From assembly GCA_026414995.1 (NCBI GenBank), contig JAOAHY010000009.1, positions 1-42,596 of the forward strand: a stretch of 42,596 nucleotides of DNA. The letters run 5' to 3'. The notes under the pieces are model-generated. The model saw only the letters and a list, made by a program, of their open reading frames with translations. It made no database searches and had not been told where the DNA came from. This document shows positions 5,855-42,596 of this stretch, in pieces; within the stretch, counting starts at the first letter, position 1; every line of letters starts with the position of its first letter. The translations under genes and the position numbers were made by a program. The DNA comes from Caldisericia bacterium. GTDB taxonomy: Bacteria; Caldisericota; Caldisericia; B22-G15.

Positions 5855-7099
5855 ATGAAAAAAGTTTTGGAGAGGTTTTTAAATTATGTTAAGTTTGATA
5901 CTCAATCAAAAGAAGGAAGTGAAACTTATCCCTCAACTCAAACTCAAAAAATTTTTGCTGAATATCTTAAAAATGAACTGATTTCGATAGGAATGGAAGA
6001 TGTTGAGGTTGATAAATATTCCTATGTTTTCGCAACACTTCCCTCTAACATAGAAAAAGATATTCCACCTCTTGGTTTTATGGCACATATGGATACAGCA
6101 CCAAATATGAGTGGAAAAAATGTTAATCCAAAGGTAATTGAAAATTATGATGGTAAAGAAATTGTTTTAAATGAAAAAGAAAATATTATTCTTTCACCTT
6201 CTTATTATCCTGAAATATTGAAATATGTTGGAGATGATCTCGTTGTTACTGATGGAACAACTCTTCTTGGAGCAGATGATAAAGGAGGAATTGCAGAGAT
6301 AATAACTGCAATGGAATATCTTTTAAATCATCCTGAAATAAAACATGGAAAAATTAGAGTTTGTTTTACTCCAGATGAAGAGATTGGAAAAGGAGTTGAA
6401 TTTCTTGAACCAGAAAAATTTGGGGTTAAATTTGCTTATACAGTTGATGGTGGAGAAGTTGGTGAACTTCAATTTGAAAATTTTAATGCTGCAAAGGCGC
6501 TTGTTGAAATTAATGGAGTTGATATACACCCTAAAGAAGCTAAAGGCAAAATGAAAAATTCAATGCTAATTGCAAATGAACTTATAAATATGTTGCCTCC
6601 ACAAGAAAGACCAGAACACACAGAAGGATATGAGGGTTTCTTCCATCTTATTTCATTTGAAGGAAAAGTTGAAAAAACAAATCTTTATTTTATTATTAGA
6701 GATTTTTTTAAAGATAGTTTTCAAAAAAGAAAAGAATTAATGAAAAAAATTTCAGAAATTTTAAATTTTAAATATGGGAGTGGAACAGTAAATTTAATAT
6801 TAGAAGATACATATTATAATATGAAAGAAATTGTTGAACCACATATGGAATTAATTGAAATTGCAAAAAAATCTATGGAAGAAATTGGTATAAATCCAAA
6901 AATAATTCCAATAAGAGGTGGTACAGATGGTGCTAGATTATCTTATAAAGGAATACCAACTCCAAACATTGGAGTAGGTGGTTTTAATTATCATGGAAGA
7001 TATGAATATATACCTGTATCATCTCTTGAAAAAGTAACTCAAATTATAATAAATATTGTAAAAAATTACACTGAATTTTATTATAAGTCACCTGGGTAA
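5855..7099 (+). CDS. pepT: peptidase T (tripeptide aminopeptidase)
   Basis: This is a cytoplasmic zinc aminopeptidase of family M20B that removes the N-terminal residue of tripeptides. All family landmarks are present: GFMAHMDTAP (zinc ligand H78, catalytic-site D80), LGADDKGG (bridging D141 region), FTPDEEIGKG (general base E175/E176), YTVDGGEVGEL, and the C-terminal IRGGTDGARLS and GVGGFNYHGRYEY zinc site. The length of 414 aa is normal. A strong GGAAAGGAGG precedes the ATG. The last 19 nt overlap, tail to tail, the 3' end of the secreted propeller gene on the other strand, and no terminator is visible between them. It is probably expressed on its own, 72 nt after the unknown membrane protein. 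Confidence 0.95.
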   Translation: MKKVLERFLNYVKFDTQSKEGSETYPSTQTQKIFAEYLKNELISIGMEDVEVDKYSYVFATLPSNIEKDIPPLGFMAHMDTAPNMSGKNVNPKVIENYDGKEIVLNEKENIILSPSYYPEILKYVGDDLVVTDGTTLLGADDKGGIAEIITAMEYLLNHPEIKHGKIRVCFTPDEEIGKGVEFLEPEKFGVKFAYTVDGGEVGELQFENFNAAKALVEINGVDIHPKEAKGKMKNSMLIANELINMLPPQERPEHTEGYEGFFHLISFEGKVEKTNLYFIIRDFFKDSFQKRKELMKKISEILNFKYGSGTVNLILEDTYYNMKEIVEPHMELIEIAKKSMEEIGINPKIIPIRGGTDGARLSYKGIPTPNIGVGGFNYHGRYEYIPVSSLEKVTQIIINIVKNYTEFYYKSPG

Positions 7100-10000
7100 A
7101 TTATCGATATTTTTTTATTAATTGAATCCCAGTTTACCTTGCATCCTAAATTTTCCGCAACAAATCTAATTGGTAGCATAGTCCTGCCATTTATTATAAG
7201 GGGTGTAACTTTGGGATTTTCTGGATCTATTAATTTAATGTTATTGTTTACTTTTGCTAAATTTTTATCTATCCACAATTCTATAATTATATCATTGAAT
7301 AATATTTTGACTTTTCTTTCATTCTGTTCCCATATCAATTTTGCACCAAGAGGTTCTAAGATATATCTTATAGGTAGATAAGTTCTGCCTTCTATTATTC
7401 TAGGAGGAGTATCAATTTTTTTAGGTGTATCATTAACATACATAATATCGCTATTTATAGTAAGTTCAAATTTAATAATTTTTAAATAAAGTACTTTAAA
7501 AGACTTTTCACCTAAATTTCCTGCAATATCTTCATATTTAAAATTTAGATAATTTATGCCTTCCTTTAAATAAATAATTTGATAAAATTCAAAATTTTCT
7601 GTCAAATTTAAAATATTATCATTTAATTTAAGATATTTAATAAATTTATAATTATCTTTTATTTTACCATTTATAATAAGTGTATCATTATAAACCCTAT
7701 CAGGTATATTCAAAATTAGTTCAGGTTTTTCTAAATCAAGAATCACATTAATTTCTTTTATTGCAAAATTATTAAAAGTATCATATGCTTTTATAAATAT
7801 TTTATTTATGCCTTCATTTAAATTTAAATTAAAATTGAAAAGTCCGGTTATATTAAAATTTATTTTATTATCATTAATATAAATATCCTTAACATTTGTC
7901 TCATGATCATATACCTTACCAATAATATTAATTTGATAATTATTTGTGTAATAGTTATCATTTGGAAAAATAATTTCAATATAAGGAGGATTTGAATCCT
8001 GAATAGGAATTTGAATTATTAAAATTTCAGATATTTCAGTAAAATAAAATCCTACAATTTTTAATTGATAGTAATAAACATTATTAGATGAAATTTCATT
8101 ATCTAAATATTCAAAAGAGTTATTATTAAATACTTTAATTAATTTCATTTCTTCTAATGTGTTACCTCTATAAAGCTCATATTTTCTTATATAAGAAATT
8201 TCAAAATCTAAAATATTCCATTTAATTTTTACAAATTTTTCCATAAATTCATAATTAAATATGATACTAGGTTTTTCAGTGTAAATTTTAATTAATTTAA
8301 ATATTCCATTTCCATCAGTTCCTACATACACATTATTTTTATTATCAATATATAAATCATTCAAAAAATAATTTGTTAATCCATTTGATAGAGGAATCCA
8401 TATTTTATTAATAAAATCATAATAATTAATTCCAGAATCACCAGATGTTAAAATTCCATTATTATATTGATAAATTTTAAAAACTTTACTATTCTCTAAT
8501 CCTAAAAATCTCCAATTTTTACCAATATCTTCAGATTCATATACACCATTGTCTGTTCCAATATAAATTTTATTATTTATAAAATTTAGAATATATATAT
8601 TAGAACCTATTGCTTTTGTATCTACATAATTATGAATATCAAATAATTTTTCCCATACTTTAAGATCTTTAGTTATATATAATCCGTTATTAGTAGCAGC
8701 AAAATATAACTTTTTATCTTCAAAATTAATACAACTAAAAGAATTAATTTTTAATTCATTTAAGCCAATATTTATCCATTTATATTTGTTAATATCTGAC
8801 ATAAAAATCCCTTCATTAGTTGATAAAAAAATTCTAAAAGAATCATTTTTGTCTATAAAAATAGAATTAATACTTGATCTAAAATTTGTTGTTTCATTTG
8901 TTTCTATATATTTCAAATTCTTTAAATCAAAATTAAATAATCCAAAATTAGTTCCTAAATAAATAGTATTTTCATTTAATGGGTTTAAATGAATACAATA
9001 TATTTCTAAATCTAAAGGATAATTATACAAAAATGATCTTCTTATATTATCAAAATATCCTATTTTCCCATCTCTACCGATATAATATAATTTATTGTCA
9101 AACTCTAAAGTATTTGAAATGTATAAAGAAGTATTTACACTATTAAAATATCCAGAATTATTAGAAATATTTAAATAAAAATTGCCAATTTCAGTTGATA
9201 AAATCAAAACATCAGGTGACTCAAAAAAATATGAGTTTATATTCTCTATTGTTAAAGGTAATTCAAGTTCATACCAATTAATAAAACAATCATTTGTATA
9301 GAAGCAAAAACCTCTCTGTTTGTTTACAAGAGGTATATTTAAAATTCCAAATGTATAAATTATATTGTTATTATTTGGATGAATAAATATATTTTTAAAC
9401 GTATAGTATTCAGAATCAAAAATAAATGCTCTTTCCCAAGTTATTCCATCGTTATCAGTTTTAAATAAACCATAATTTGATGTTCCAACAAATAATTTTT
9501 TATTATTGTTTGGATCAATGCCTATCGAATAAATATAATAATAAGTTAAACCAATATTTTCCCATGTATCACCAGCATCTGTTGATTTAAATAAACCTCT
9601 TCCTCCAAGATATATAATTGATGGGTTTTTAAGATTTATTTCAAAACATATAACAATTCCATTAAATGTTTTTTTAAAATTTAAATTTTCTGAATATATT
9701 GATTTATAAAAACCTGAAAATGAAGATAAAAAAATATATGTTAAATCTTGATCTTTTAATTTAGCTATCTCAATTTTTTCAATATCTAATTTTGTGTTTA
9801 TATCAATATTAACCTCATGAAAACTTTCTCCAAAATCGTCAGTTTTATATAATCCATTGTTTGTTGCAACATAGAAAATATTATAATTGTTAGGATCTTC
9901 TTTTATATAATTTACAATGAAGTTATCAAATCCTATTTTAACCCATACTTTATTATTTATTTTTTTGTATAATCCAAAAGAAGTGCATGAAAATTCTGTA

Positions 10001-11055
10001 TTATTAATTTTTTTTGTATATAAAATTTGTTTTGGCTCTTCAAATTTTAAAAATGTTTTTCCAAAATTTTTACTTATTGCATAATTTTCATTAAGCCCTA
10101 TGTACATAATATTATTATTAAATTCAATACAATTAATATATTCACTATCTAAATTTAACTTTTCTAAAAGTTTAGCTTCTTCGTCATATTTGTAAATTTC
10201 ACCAATATTTGTTCCAAAAAATATATTTTTTTTATTAAGTATATTTAGACATGACACGCCAGATTTTAGACTTCTGAATATAGGACTCCAATTTTTACCA
10301 TCATCATAAGATACAAATAAACCATGAACTGTTCCAACATATAATTTTCTAATGCTATCATCATATATAATTTTAATAACTGTTGAGCATTCATTATTAA
10401 ATCCAAATATTTTCCAAGTTAAACCTCCATCCTCTGATTTATATATTCCATTACTTGTAGCTATGTAGAGGTTATTTTCATTTTTAGAATCTTGTTCTAT
10501 AAAATAAATATTTTCATTATCTTTTGATAAATTTTTATCAATATCAATATAAATCCAATCTTTTCCTTCATTTGTAGATAAGTATAATCCATATTTATTA
10601 CATCCAGCAAATATTTTATCTTTATTTTTTAAATCAAAAATAAATGTATTTACAACATCAGGCAACTCTGAAAGAAAAAACCAATTTTTACCATTATTAA
10701 TTGATTTATAAATACCAATATCAGTAGCTAAAAATATTTTATTTGGATCTTCTTGATCAAATATAATCTTATTAATAAAATGAGTAAATAAACCATTATT
10801 AATAGGTACAAGATCTTCCTCATTTAATATAGATTTATATACACCTTCTCCCCAGGTAGCAAAATATATTTCATCATTTTTAAATTTTATATCTTTAATT
10901 GATGAAAACATATAATTTTTATTAAGTGGAAACATAATTTTATTATCAAATTCAGAATTTCTAAGAATTTTTGAATTTGATAATAAAAAATCGAGATTAA
11001 GAAAATAAATTATCAGTAAACTGATAAATAAAATTATTTTAATTTTGTATGACAT
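7081..11055 (-). CDS. large secreted Asp-box beta-propeller protein with FN3-like, Ig-like and copper-amine-oxidase-N-like domains
   Basis: The 1324-aa product begins with a basic, hydrophobic export segment (residues 3-24). Residues ~45-900 hold many Asp-box/BNR-like units of the form (Y/F)-K-S-x-D-x-G-x-T-W, for example IYKSEDGGLTWKIFG, LFKSTDAGDTWENIG and VYESEDIGKNWRFLG, as in sortilin- or sialidase-like propellers. Next come an FN3-like segment (~905-990) and two Ig-like repeats beginning near DSNPPYIEIIFP and DLEKPELIL. Last are two copper-amine-oxidase-N-like repeats, each with LPIR followed by NGRT or W. Sialidase catalytic residues were not recognised, so binding or scaffold roles are likelier than catalysis (inference). 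The protein is very rich in Asn, Ile and Lys. AAAGGGA precedes the ATG, only 12 nt after tRNA-Ala. Confidence 0.85.
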   Translation of the reverse strand: MSYKIKIILFISLLIIYFLNLDFLLSNSKILRNSEFDNKIMFPLNKNYMFSSIKDIKFKNDEIYFATWGEGVYKSILNEEDLVPINNGLFTHFINKIIFDQEDPNKIFLATDIGIYKSINNGKNWFFLSELPDVVNTFIFDLKNKDKIFAGCNKYGLYLSTNEGKDWIYIDIDKNLSKDNENIYFIEQDSKNENNLYIATSNGIYKSEDGGLTWKIFGFNNECSTVIKIIYDDSIRKLYVGTVHGLFVSYDDGKNWSPIFRSLKSGVSCLNILNKKNIFFGTNIGEIYKYDEEAKLLEKLNLDSEYINCIEFNNNIMYIGLNENYAISKNFGKTFLKFEEPKQILYTKKINNTEFSCTSFGLYKKINNKVWVKIGFDNFIVNYIKEDPNNYNIFYVATNNGLYKTDDFGESFHEVNIDINTKLDIEKIEIAKLKDQDLTYIFLSSFSGFYKSIYSENLNFKKTFNGIVICFEINLKNPSIIYLGGRGLFKSTDAGDTWENIGLTYYYIYSIGIDPNNNKKLFVGTSNYGLFKTDNDGITWERAFIFDSEYYTFKNIFIHPNNNNIIYTFGILNIPLVNKQRGFCFYTNDCFINWYELELPLTIENINSYFFESPDVLILSTEIGNFYLNISNNSGYFNSVNTSLYISNTLEFDNKLYYIGRDGKIGYFDNIRRSFLYNYPLDLEIYCIHLNPLNENTIYLGTNFGLFNFDLKNLKYIETNETTNFRSSINSIFIDKNDSFRIFLSTNEGIFMSDINKYKWINIGLNELKINSFSCINFEDKKLYFAATNNGLYITKDLKVWEKLFDIHNYVDTKAIGSNIYILNFINNKIYIGTDNGVYESEDIGKNWRFLGLENSKVFKIYQYNNGILTSGDSGINYYDFINKIWIPLSNGLTNYFLNDLYIDNKNNVYVGTDGNGIFKLIKIYTEKPSIIFNYEFMEKFVKIKWNILDFEISYIRKYELYRGNTLEEMKLIKVFNNNSFEYLDNEISSNNVYYYQLKIVGFYFTEISEILIIQIPIQDSNPPYIEIIFPNDNYYTNNYQINIIGKVYDHETNVKDIYINDNKINFNITGLFNFNLNLNEGINKIFIKAYDTFNNFAIKEINVILDLEKPELILNIPDRVYNDTLIINGKIKDNYKFIKYLKLNDNILNLTENFEFYQIIYLKEGINYLNFKYEDIAGNLGEKSFKVLYLKIIKFELTINSDIMYVNDTPKKIDTPPRIIEGRTYLPIRYILEPLGAKLIWEQNERKVKILFNDIIIELWIDKNLAKVNNNIKLIDPENPKVTPLIINGRTMLPIRFVAENLGCKVNWDSINKKISIIYPGDL

Positions 11056-11067
11056 TTACAATCCCTT

Positions 11068-11142
11068 TGGTGGAGCAGACGGGATTTGAACCCGTGACCT
11101 CCTGAGTGCAAATCAGGCGTTCTCCCGCTGAACTACTGCCCC
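11068..11142 (-). tRNA. tRNA-Ala (anticodon TGC)
   Basis: The minus strand folds as a complete cloverleaf. The seven-pair acceptor stem GGGGCAG/CTGCTCC includes the G3-U70 wobble that identifies alanine tRNAs. The D arm is GTTC/GAAC, the anticodon stem CCTGA/TCAGG encloses the loop TTTGCAC (anticodon TGC), and the T arm ACGGG/CCCGT carries TTCAAAT. Discriminator A and CCA are encoded. A promoter lies directly upstream and the next gene's ATG is 12 nt downstream. Confidence 0.98.
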
Positions 11143-11160
11143 ACCTAAAAATCTTAAAAT

Positions 11161-11188
11161 ATTATATCATAAAATATTTTAATGTAAA
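11161..11188 (-). promoter_or_regulatory. promoter of tRNA-Ala (and probably the gene after it)
   Basis: On the minus strand, TTTACA (-35, 11183-11188) is followed after 16 bp by TATAAT (11161-11166), with TGA directly before it, giving an extended -10 TGATATAAT. The expected start is about 11-12 nt before the tRNA 5' end. It fills the gap between the PQQ gene's stop and the tRNA. Confidence 0.75.
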
Positions 11189-12757
11189 TTAACTCTTTGG
11201 ATATACAATTGTTACTTTTCTTGTATTTCCATCCCATTGAACTTCACAACCAAGATTTTCTGCAACAAATCTAATTGGAAGCATTGTTCTTCCATTTATA
11301 ATGATTGGTTTTACATTATGGTTATTTTCATCAATCCATTTTATGATTCCATTAACTTTTGCTTGAGGATTATCTATCCACAATTCAATTATGTCTCCTT
11401 TAAAAGAAATAGTAACTTTTCGAGAAACTCCATCCCACATGATTTCTCCACCTAATTCCTCTACTATTGCTCTAATTGGAAGAAGAGTTCTTCCCCAATC
11501 ACTTACTATTACTGGAACAGTTCCTCTTCCTGGATCAATCTCTTTATAAATTCCATTAACACTCATCATAGGATTTCCTATCCAAAGAAGAATTGTTATT
11601 TTTTCTAATGGTGGGGGTGGCGGTGGTGATTCACTATCTTCAAATGCCCAAAGGTTATTTCCTGAACCTATAAAAATAGTTCTATTATTTCCAATTGCAA
11701 CTGATGAGTAGTATATTTTCTTCTTAAGATCAAGTTCCCATTTAAGAGTTCCATCTGGTTTAATAGCATAAAGATAACCACTTTCATCTCCAATATATAT
11801 AACTCCATTACCATCAATTGATGGTGAAGAGTTTAGCCAATATCTACTTTTAAAAGTCCATTTAATAGTTCCATTTGGATTAAATGCAACCAGCCCTCTA
11901 TTTATAACTCCAACATAAATTGTTCCATCAAATCCAATTGCTGCTGTTGAATTTATTGGACAATTATTTCCAAAATCAAATTCCCATTTTTTAGTTCCAT
12001 CTGGATTTAAAGCATAAAACTTTTGATCTGTTGATCCAAAATAAATTGTTCCATCATCTCCTATAGTTGGTGAAGAATTTATTAAATTTCCAGTTGGAAA
12101 GATCCATTTTTTAGTACCATTTGGATTGATTGCATAAATTTTTCTATCTTTTGAACAAACATATATAGTTCCATCAGGTGATACTGCAGGAGAAGATTTT
12201 GAAATAGAATATCCTGTTTCATATTCCCATTTTTTGTTTCCATTTTTATCAAGTGCATATAAATATTTACCTCCTCCAACATATATGGTTCCATCAAAAG
12301 AAATTGTTGGTGCTGATTCCGTGAGACCTCCTGTTTTATAAGACCATTTTAATGTACCATCAGGTTTTATTGCATAAATTGTTGAACCTCTTCCAAAATA
12401 TATTACACCATTTGAATCAATTGCTGGTGACGAAACTGTGCTAACATCTCCTGGACCTTTATAATACCATTTTTCTGTGCCATTTGAATTAATTGCATAG
12501 AGTTTTCCATCACTTGATGCAACATAAATTGTTCCATCACTTCCAATAACTGGTGATGTATCAATTGCATCACCTGTAGAAAATCTAAATTTTTCTTTTG
12601 GTGTCTCTGGGCCAAGAAGATTAGTTCTTCCTGTGTGATAAATATCATGCATAAACATAGGCCAAGGTGAAATTTGATTTGTTTTTGAATTTATAAATCC
12701 AATTTGACCTAAAAATAAAAAAGTTAAAATCAATGAGAAAATTATTAATCTTCTCAT
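11189..12757 (-). CDS. secreted PQQ-type beta-propeller protein with copper-amine-oxidase-N-like C-terminus
   Basis: The 522-aa product starts with a signal peptide (MRR plus hydrophobic residues to ~20). SPWPMFMHDIYHTGR follows, the usual entry to PQQ/WD40-like propellers of secreted bacterial proteins. Residues ~50-375 hold about eight blades with the repeated pattern DGTIYVGS...YAINPDGTKKW, in tandem units of about 40 aa. A proline linker (PPPPPP near residue 380) leads to two copper-amine-oxidase-N-like repeats whose last part (NGRTMLPIRFVAENLGC) is identical to the end of the 1324-aa protein across the tRNA. No PQQ-enzyme active site was recognised. The family role is usually extracellular binding or assembly; any specific function here is unknown. 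GGAGGAG precedes the ATG. Confidence 0.87.
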   Translation of the reverse strand: MRRLIIFSLILTFLFLGQIGFINSKTNQISPWPMFMHDIYHTGRTNLLGPETPKEKFRFSTGDAIDTSPVIGSDGTIYVASSDGKLYAINSNGTEKWYYKGPGDVSTVSSPAIDSNGVIYFGRGSTIYAIKPDGTLKWSYKTGGLTESAPTISFDGTIYVGGGKYLYALDKNGNKKWEYETGYSISKSSPAVSPDGTIYVCSKDRKIYAINPNGTKKWIFPTGNLINSSPTIGDDGTIYFGSTDQKFYALNPDGTKKWEFDFGNNCPINSTAAIGFDGTIYVGVINRGLVAFNPNGTIKWTFKSRYWLNSSPSIDGNGVIYIGDESGYLYAIKPDGTLKWELDLKKKIYYSSVAIGNNRTIFIGSGNNLWAFEDSESPPPPPPLEKITILLWIGNPMMSVNGIYKEIDPGRGTVPVIVSDWGRTLLPIRAIVEELGGEIMWDGVSRKVTISFKGDIIELWIDNPQAKVNGIIKWIDENNHNVKPIIINGRTMLPIRFVAENLGCEVQWDGNTRKVTIVYPKS

Positions 12758-27884: not shown

Positions 27885-28500
27885 GTCTTCTCCTTTCTTC
27901 CAATATATTTATAACATAATTATCTTCAACTTGCTCAAAATCCTCATAAAACTGTCCAACCGCATAAAAAAAGTGTGGAAGATACAATGAAATAAATAGA
28001 TCTACCTCTTTTTCTATTCTTTCTTTTGCATCAATACTTGAAACAGGAACAGCAACAATTGTTTTGTTTGGATTTTTATTTTTTATAGTTCTTACTGCAA
28101 TTAACATTGTTTCTCCTGTTGCAATTCCATCATCAACAACAATTGCAGTTTGATTAGTTAAATCTTTTAATTGTTTACCACCTCTAAATAATTTAACTCT
28201 ATCTTCAAGAGTTTTTCTTTTTCTTTCGATTGTTTTTTTTAAAAGCTCTTCATTTTCTTTTTCTCTTAAAAAAATTGTTCCATCTTCACTTATTGCACCA
28301 ATTGCATACTCTTCATTGTAAAAAGAAGGAATTTTAGAAACAATAATAATGTCAAGAGGGCAATCTAAAATCTTACTTATTTCATAACCAATTACAACTC
28401 CTCCTCTTGGTATGCCAAAAACAATAGGATTTTTTAAGTTTAACTCTTTTAATTTTTTTCCTAATAGTATTCCTGCTTCTTCTCTATTTCTGAATATCAA
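27871..28500 (-). CDS. phosphoribosyltransferase-family protein
   Basis: The 209-aa protein has the type I phosphoribosyltransferase fold, with the PRPP-binding motif [13 protein letters not shown] at 119-131 and an N-terminal [15 protein letters not shown] segment with [17 protein letters not shown]. This subgroup, often annotated simply as phosphoribosyltransferase, has no known nucleobase specificity and is frequently found near stress or transport genes. It overlaps the bactofilin gene by 17 nt and clpP by 14 nt, so it is tightly built into this operon. A role in nucleobase salvage is possible but not supported by a specificity motif that I can recognise. Confidence 0.85.
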
Positions 28501-28891
28501 CTTTTGTTTTCTCTTTTGAAATTAAAGTTTCTTTATTTACTCCCATTGTGCATTTTCCTTCTAAAACCCCTCCCTCTTCAATTGCAATTTTAGATGTATG
28601 AACATCACCAATTAATTTTCCAGTTGAATAAATTTCTACTTTTCTATCAGAAAAAACATTTCCATTAATAACTCCCATTATTTGAACTTCAGCTGCCTTA
28701 ATATTTGATTCAACAACTCCTTTTTCTCCAATTGTTACTATTCCTTTAACTTCAATTTCACCTTTTACTTTTCCATCAACTCTTAAACTACCTTCACAAA
28801 TAATTTTTCCTTCAACTGTTGTTCCTTCACCAATATATGACTGTGCTGAATCTCTTACAACTTCTTCTTTTGATGCTTTTCCGAATGGCAT
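28484..28891 (-). CDS. bactofilin-family cytoskeletal protein
   Basis: The 135-aa protein is a bactofilin (polymer-forming cytoskeletal family, DUF583). A short disordered N-terminus leads to a right-handed beta-helix with repeating turns such as GEGTTVEGKIICEGSLRVDG, KGEIEVKGIVTIGEKGVV and NIKAAEVQIMGVINGNV. The C-terminal tail is charged. Bactofilins polymerise at the membrane without nucleotide and often position cell-wall enzymes. GGAGG precedes the ATG. It is the first protein gene after tRNA-Gly, only 23 nt from the tRNA's CCA end, so it has no room for a separate promoter. Operon partners include the phosphoribosyltransferase, ClpP and Lon. Confidence 0.92.
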   Translation of the reverse strand: MPFGKASKEEVVRDSAQSYIGEGTTVEGKIICEGSLRVDGKVKGEIEVKGIVTIGEKGVVESNIKAAEVQIMGVINGNVFSDRKVEIYSTGKLIGDVHTSKIAIEEGGVLEGKCTMGVNKETLISKEKTKVDIQK

Positions 28892-28914
28892 TACTACCTC
28901 CTTTTTGAAATTTA

Positions 28915-28989
28915 TGGAGCGGGAAACGGGATTCGAACCCGCGGCCCTCGGCTTGGGAAGCCGATGCTCTACCCCTGAGCTATTCCCGC
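28915..28989 (-). tRNA. tRNA-Gly (anticodon CCC)
   Basis: The minus strand forms a full cloverleaf: acceptor stem GCGGGAA/TTCCCGC, D arm GCTC/GAGC, anticodon stem TCGGC/GCCGA around loop TTCCCAA (anticodon CCC), T arm GCGGG/CCCGT with TTCGAAT, discriminator T, and encoded CCA. It lies between the LmbE-like gene and the bactofilin gene on the same strand. Confidence 0.98.
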
Positions 28990-42216: not shown

Positions 42217-42596
42217 AATATATGCGATGTTTATCGATTTTTGTGAATCAAATTGTTTCAATCCCTCATAGGCGAGCTAAAAACTTATCGTAAACTGATA
42301 AATTTATAGTGAGTTCTGAGTGTTTCAATCCCTCATAGGCGAGCTAAAAACTCATTATCTAACTCATCTAAAAATCTATTCTTTAGAACATTTCAATCCC
42401 TCATAGGCGAGCTAAAAACATATTAGGCTGTTTAAAATACCTTATATCTTTCATAAGTTTCAATCCCTCATAGGCGAGCTAAAAACGTTCGGAATTTATT
42501 AAAAATCCAATTAGAGTAAACCTAGTTTCAATCCCTCATAGGCGAGCTAAAAACTTTACAAAATTATAATAAGCCTCTAAAATAAATTTCAAGTTT
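42187..42596 (-). CRISPR. leader-distal end of a CRISPR array (six complete repeats, cut by window edge)
   Basis: 30-nt repeats begin at 42187 (degenerate), 42255, 42322, 42390, 42457 and 42525. A seventh begins at 42593 and is cut after 4 nt. Spacers are 38, 37, 38, 37, 38 and 38 nt. As read on the + strand the repeat starts GTTTCAATCCC and ends GCTAAAAAC; its reverse complement ends ATTGAAAC, the 8-nt 5' handle usual for type I-B/III crRNAs. The array is therefore transcribed leftward and the leader lies right of the window. Repeat 4 has A in place of the first G. No cas genes are present. Confidence 0.97.

Follow-up and report, generated by a model that had tools for sequence, protein, structure and literature searches.

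A tRNA-Ala gene leads an evolutionarily young, probable tRNA-mRNA operon in a Caldisericia genome whose tRNAs head operons throughout

The window analyzed here, a stretch of 42,596 nucleotides, belongs to a Caldisericia genome (G000) of 1,270,882 bases (1.27 Mb) in 58 contigs. On its minus strand lie, in order, the end of a co-directional 522-aa gene (11189-12757), a promoter (11188-11161), a tRNA-Ala(TGC) gene (11068-11142), a 12-nt spacer (11056-11067), and an intact open reading frame for a 1324-aa secreted or surface protein (7081-11055). The tRNA was called by ARAGORN and matched Rfam family RF00005 at 73.5 bits, and its last three 3' bases are an encoded CCA. The gap of 12 nt between this CCA and the ATG given in the initial annotation is exact, with the tRNA ending at 11068 and the open reading frame starting at 11055; the leader start AAAGGGA proposed alongside it counts the final A of the CCA as leader. 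The spacer itself, AAGGGATTGTAA, carries a weak Shine-Dalgarno-like AAGGG.

The 1324-aa product has an N-terminal signal, which is hydrophobic and contains lysine, and domain matches to Sortilin/BNR propeller repeats, Glucodextran_B, and a C-terminal Cu_amine_oxidN1 domain. The 522-aa protein encoded on the other side of the promoter is also a propeller, of the PQQ type, and ends in the same Cu_amine_oxidN1 domain. Proteins with these shared parts are multicopy in relatives. Long propeller proteins of 1369 and 1372 aa (our own gene caller) are encoded in the related genomes G002 and G003, where their genes are located elsewhere and have ordinary Shine-Dalgarno leaders; no tRNA was found in the 12-kb loci around them. 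A scan of genome contigs with P0001 as the query returned no relatives.

A near-consensus promoter occupies the 46 nt preceding tRNA-Ala. The consensus scan placed a -35 hexamer, TTTACA, at 11183-11188, where it directly follows the stop codon of the 522-aa gene, and a -10 hexamer, TATAAT, at 11161-11166, with 16 nt between them, a match at 11/12 positions, and the upstream TG of an extended -10 element. A strong extended -10 promoter had been proposed directly before the tRNA, and it is indeed there: its score was equaled by 0 of 5000 order-1 resamples of the same 70-nt stretch, and TG-N-TATAAT is kept before the same tRNA-Ala in G002, G003, and G004. The best promoter-like score between a point 70 nt before the CCA end and the ATG was 5/13, compared with 12/13 upstream of the tRNA. 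No convincing promoter was found between tRNA-Ala and the ATG by consensus scans, which cover one promoter type only, and a sequence scan of the same interval detected no terminator-like site. Because a strong promoter lies upstream and neither element intervenes before the ATG, joint transcription of tRNA-Ala and the 1324-aa gene is likely and is the most economical reading; the layout gives good support to the earlier proposal that one transcript, begun at the tRNA promoter, covers both, a proposal read from anatomy. Transcription could still end within the long 1324-aa gene, or be weak.

The distance between the two genes is ordinary for this organism. We examined all 43 tRNAs of G000 with their flanks, calling genes with our own codon-usage script. 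Twenty-four tRNAs end a cluster and have a neighbor, 19 of these face a co-directional gene, and in 17 of the 19 the start codon lies within 30 nt of the tRNA (16 by script and 1 added). The added junction, tRNA-Trp followed 8 nt later by SecE, was missed by the script and confirmed by Pfam; another of the 17 is a 79-aa open reading frame behind Leu(caa) that has no Pfam support. Because 75% of co-directional protein pairs in G000 are likewise within 30 nt, short spacing is the habit of the genome, and the idea that a 12-nt spacing is unusual in itself was rejected. The tRNA share was not significantly above that of the protein pairs (p=0.18); the spacing behind tRNAs, being no closer than among protein genes overall, is therefore, alone, no proof of a special arrangement.

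What does set the leading tRNAs apart is the asymmetry of their flanks. The median gap is 44 nt upstream of them and 12 nt downstream (p=8e-4), and upstream gaps of at most 30 nt occur in only 5/17 (p=2e-4 versus background). Before leading tRNAs the promoter scores average 10.3; the average is 7.5 for controls inside operons and 6.4 for the tRNA together with its spacer. Given these gaps and scores, tRNAs head operons throughout G000, with promoters before the tRNAs and neither inside nor after them. The window's other tRNA, Gly(CCC), is a further case (28484-28989), with a co-directional bactofilin gene 23 nt on that has a strong Shine-Dalgarno site and a junction that is kept in G002. Elsewhere in the genome, tilS (L044:614-2011), uvrA (L045:2105-4001), and a gene for a PPIC-type PPIase (L035:2096-3058) start 5, 5, and 6 nt after the CCA, and no Shine-Dalgarno site was found in the spacers before them; if the tRNAs are excised at the CCA, these three mRNAs would be nearly leaderless. 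TilS modifies tRNA-Ile(CAU), and the tRNA 5 nt before tilS (L044:614-2093) has a CAU anticodon, one of three such tRNAs in the genome.

This arrangement recurs in relatives, which were drawn from a PNPase scan and are labeled Caldiserica or Caldisericia. In G002, which belongs to the same genus, 12/16 co-directional tRNA junctions are within 30 nt by script. Thirteen junctions of a tRNA with a homologous protein gene are common to G000 and G002, including those of secE, leuS, thrS, tilS, uvrA, and an H+-PPase, and most have nearly equal spacings in the two genomes (5/5 nt for tilS, 5/5 for uvrA, 6/6 for the PPIase, 10/10 for a CT398-like protein, and 20/20 for leuS). The Gly/bactofilin spacing differs by at least 4 nt, and a fourteenth common junction, behind Leu(taa), has a gap of 52-54 nt. 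In other families of the class, six junctions in G018 and three in G009 are shared with G000; two Firmicutes genomes, incompletely sampled, gave 0/10 and 1/4. On these counts, other members of the class share the habit of placing the tRNA first, which is most pronounced in this genus.

The junction of tRNA-Ala with the propeller gene does not belong to those kept. The syntenic locus of G002 has the same tRNA-Ala, the same promoter, the upstream propeller gene, and an M20 peptidase gene beyond, and the 1324-aa gene is absent. In its place, behind tRNA-Ala on the minus strand of L113, lie about 690 nt of what by eye appears to be a decayed, unrelated membrane-protein coding sequence, and no significant tblastn match to the 1324-aa protein was found in this interval. 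The G003 contig ends 12 nt past tRNA-Ala, with a different sequence there, and in G004 no start codon was found close behind the tRNA. A conserved tRNA-Ala/propeller pair was rejected, since the G002 interval holds only the remnants of another coding sequence; the junction that a conserved functional coupling would keep is absent there, and 13 others were kept. The decayed remnants in the G002 slot suggest gene turnover behind tRNA-Ala.

The tRNA-Ala/1324-aa layout is of a known kind, the mixed tRNA-mRNA operon: by consensus scans, a promoter lies upstream of the tRNA and the interval before the coding sequence is free of promoters and terminators. In Escherichia coli, thrU-tyrU-glyT-thrT-tufB and tRNA-Trp-secE are such operons; secG-leuU and metT were reportedly described as such by Mohanty and Kushner in 2008. 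Our search of the literature on mixed tRNA-mRNA operons returned nothing directly relevant. As in the bacterial operons, a tRNA and a protein gene would share one transcript, and G000 also has tRNA-Trp before secE; unlike in those, nearly all co-directional neighbors of tRNAs in G000 are so arranged, and the 1324-aa gene encodes a lineage-specific surface protein. In mitochondrial tRNA punctuation, the 3' cut of a tRNA sets the 5' end of an mRNA. The resemblance here would hold only if the tRNA is excised at its CCA, whereupon the 3' cut would set the mRNA 5' end; unlike the mitochondrial case, each unit in G000 has its own promoter, and the cleavage is hypothetical.

The explanation that we favor, with a probability of roughly 80%, is that the tRNA-Ala is the first member of an operon transcribed from a sigma-70-type promoter, in the default layout of this compact genome, with a propeller gene behind it in one lineage only. 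The promoter at 11161-11188 would start a transcript near 11153 that contains the tRNA and continues into the 1324-aa gene. RNase P would cleave the 5' side of the tRNA, and a 3' cut or trimming would free it and leave an mRNA with a leader of at most 12 nt. Having arrived, or stayed, behind tRNA-Ala, the propeller gene would thereby receive constitutive transcription from a tRNA promoter. The pair is ordinary, one instance, young in evolutionary terms, of a layout that this genome uses throughout. The initial annotation had supposed that expression of the surface protein is specially tied to tRNA synthesis, which does not fit a layout found in 17/19 cases and a pair absent from the syntenic G002 locus; because that junction is missing in G002 and the long relatives lie elsewhere without a tRNA, a conserved regulatory tie is not supported. 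More likely, the propeller gene came to lie downstream of an active tRNA promoter, or stayed there, in a single lineage.

A stronger version of the cleavage step, in which a cut exactly after the CCA makes the functional mRNA and tRNA synthesis and processing regulate surface-protein output, appears unlikely. The encoded CCA and the 12-nt spacer with AAGGG speak for it, and RNase Z of Thermotoga maritima cuts just after the CCA (PMC7479834). CCA is encoded in all G000 tRNAs except one, and, given this near-universal CCA and the cutting position of the T. maritima enzyme, a cut behind it may set the mRNA free. The exception, tRNA-Thr(CGT) (L041:2009-2082), reads CTC at its predicted 3' end; it also lacks CCA in G002, and the G018 copy has one. 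G000 thus resembles T. maritima in encoding CCA in nearly all tRNAs (PMC7479834) and differs from it in having no RNase Z match above the family cut-off. With one HMM per family, by which a divergent enzyme could escape detection, G000 gave no match for RNase E/G and, for RNase Z, only one of 22 bits in a metallo-hydrolase-like protein; the same window has genes for RNase J and PNPase. Cutting may occur even without the standard enzyme, because Propionibacterium acnes, which also lacks an obvious tRNase Z, shows unusual 3' cuts (PMC3848588). The regulatory claim is weakened further by the absence of the pair from G002 and by predicted pairing at the start codon, which is similar in the joined and released RNAs and therefore does not point to a switch. 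A ribosome could also initiate on the uncut transcript.

It is also quite improbable that transcription mostly ends after the tRNA, leaving the long gene barely expressed or decaying. The absence of the gene from G002, in a slot occupied by another, decayed coding sequence, indicates a slot that turns over and would accord with this, but the open reading frame runs unbroken for 1324 codons and retains every domain, and nothing resembling a terminator separates it from the tRNA. Least plausible, to the point of being hardly credible, is a start for the 1324-aa gene of its own, within the tRNA or spacer or of a type outside the scan and independent of the tRNA promoter: the consensus scan was limited to one promoter type, but promoters before leading tRNAs fit sigma-70 well and tRNA plus spacer scores below controls.

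By itself the tRNA-Ala/propeller locus is of little importance; of more interest is that this lineage uses the layout genome-wide and conserves it. In a group that has been little studied, the layout makes it simple to ask whether the excision of tRNAs defines bacterial mRNA 5' ends and which nuclease does the cutting where the standard ones are not found; the conserved tilS, thrS, leuS, secE, and uvrA junctions suit that question better than the propeller gene does. We raise tentatively, and with considerable doubt, the idea that in Caldisericia 5' punctuation by tRNAs is genome-wide, such that most co-directional mRNAs behind tRNAs would begin at the tRNA 3' cut, several of them (tilS, uvrA, and the PPIC-type PPIase) with 5- to 6-nt leaders lacking a Shine-Dalgarno site. 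If true, this would couple a group of translation genes to the promoters and processing of tRNAs, in a bacterium with no recognizable RNase Z or RNase E/G.

Two further features were observed in the window. Just past the signal-peptide codons of the 1324-aa gene lies a 51-nt near-perfect palindrome (10938-10988), with 25-nt arms, 23 pairs, and a 1-nt loop, which the initial annotation had overlooked. It is unique in the 443 kb of genome scanned, N runs aside, and its class was present in 0/300 codon shuffles of the gene; its predicted fold has an energy of -16.5 kcal/mol, and the part of the gene that contains it has a folding energy (rank 61 of 386) that lies away from the extremes of the genome. 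A template-switch mutation and a DNA-level element are both possibilities for its nature. Finally, five CRISPR direct repeats (Rfam CRISPR-DR2, RF01315) lie at 42255-42554, at the window's right end, where the contig ends too.
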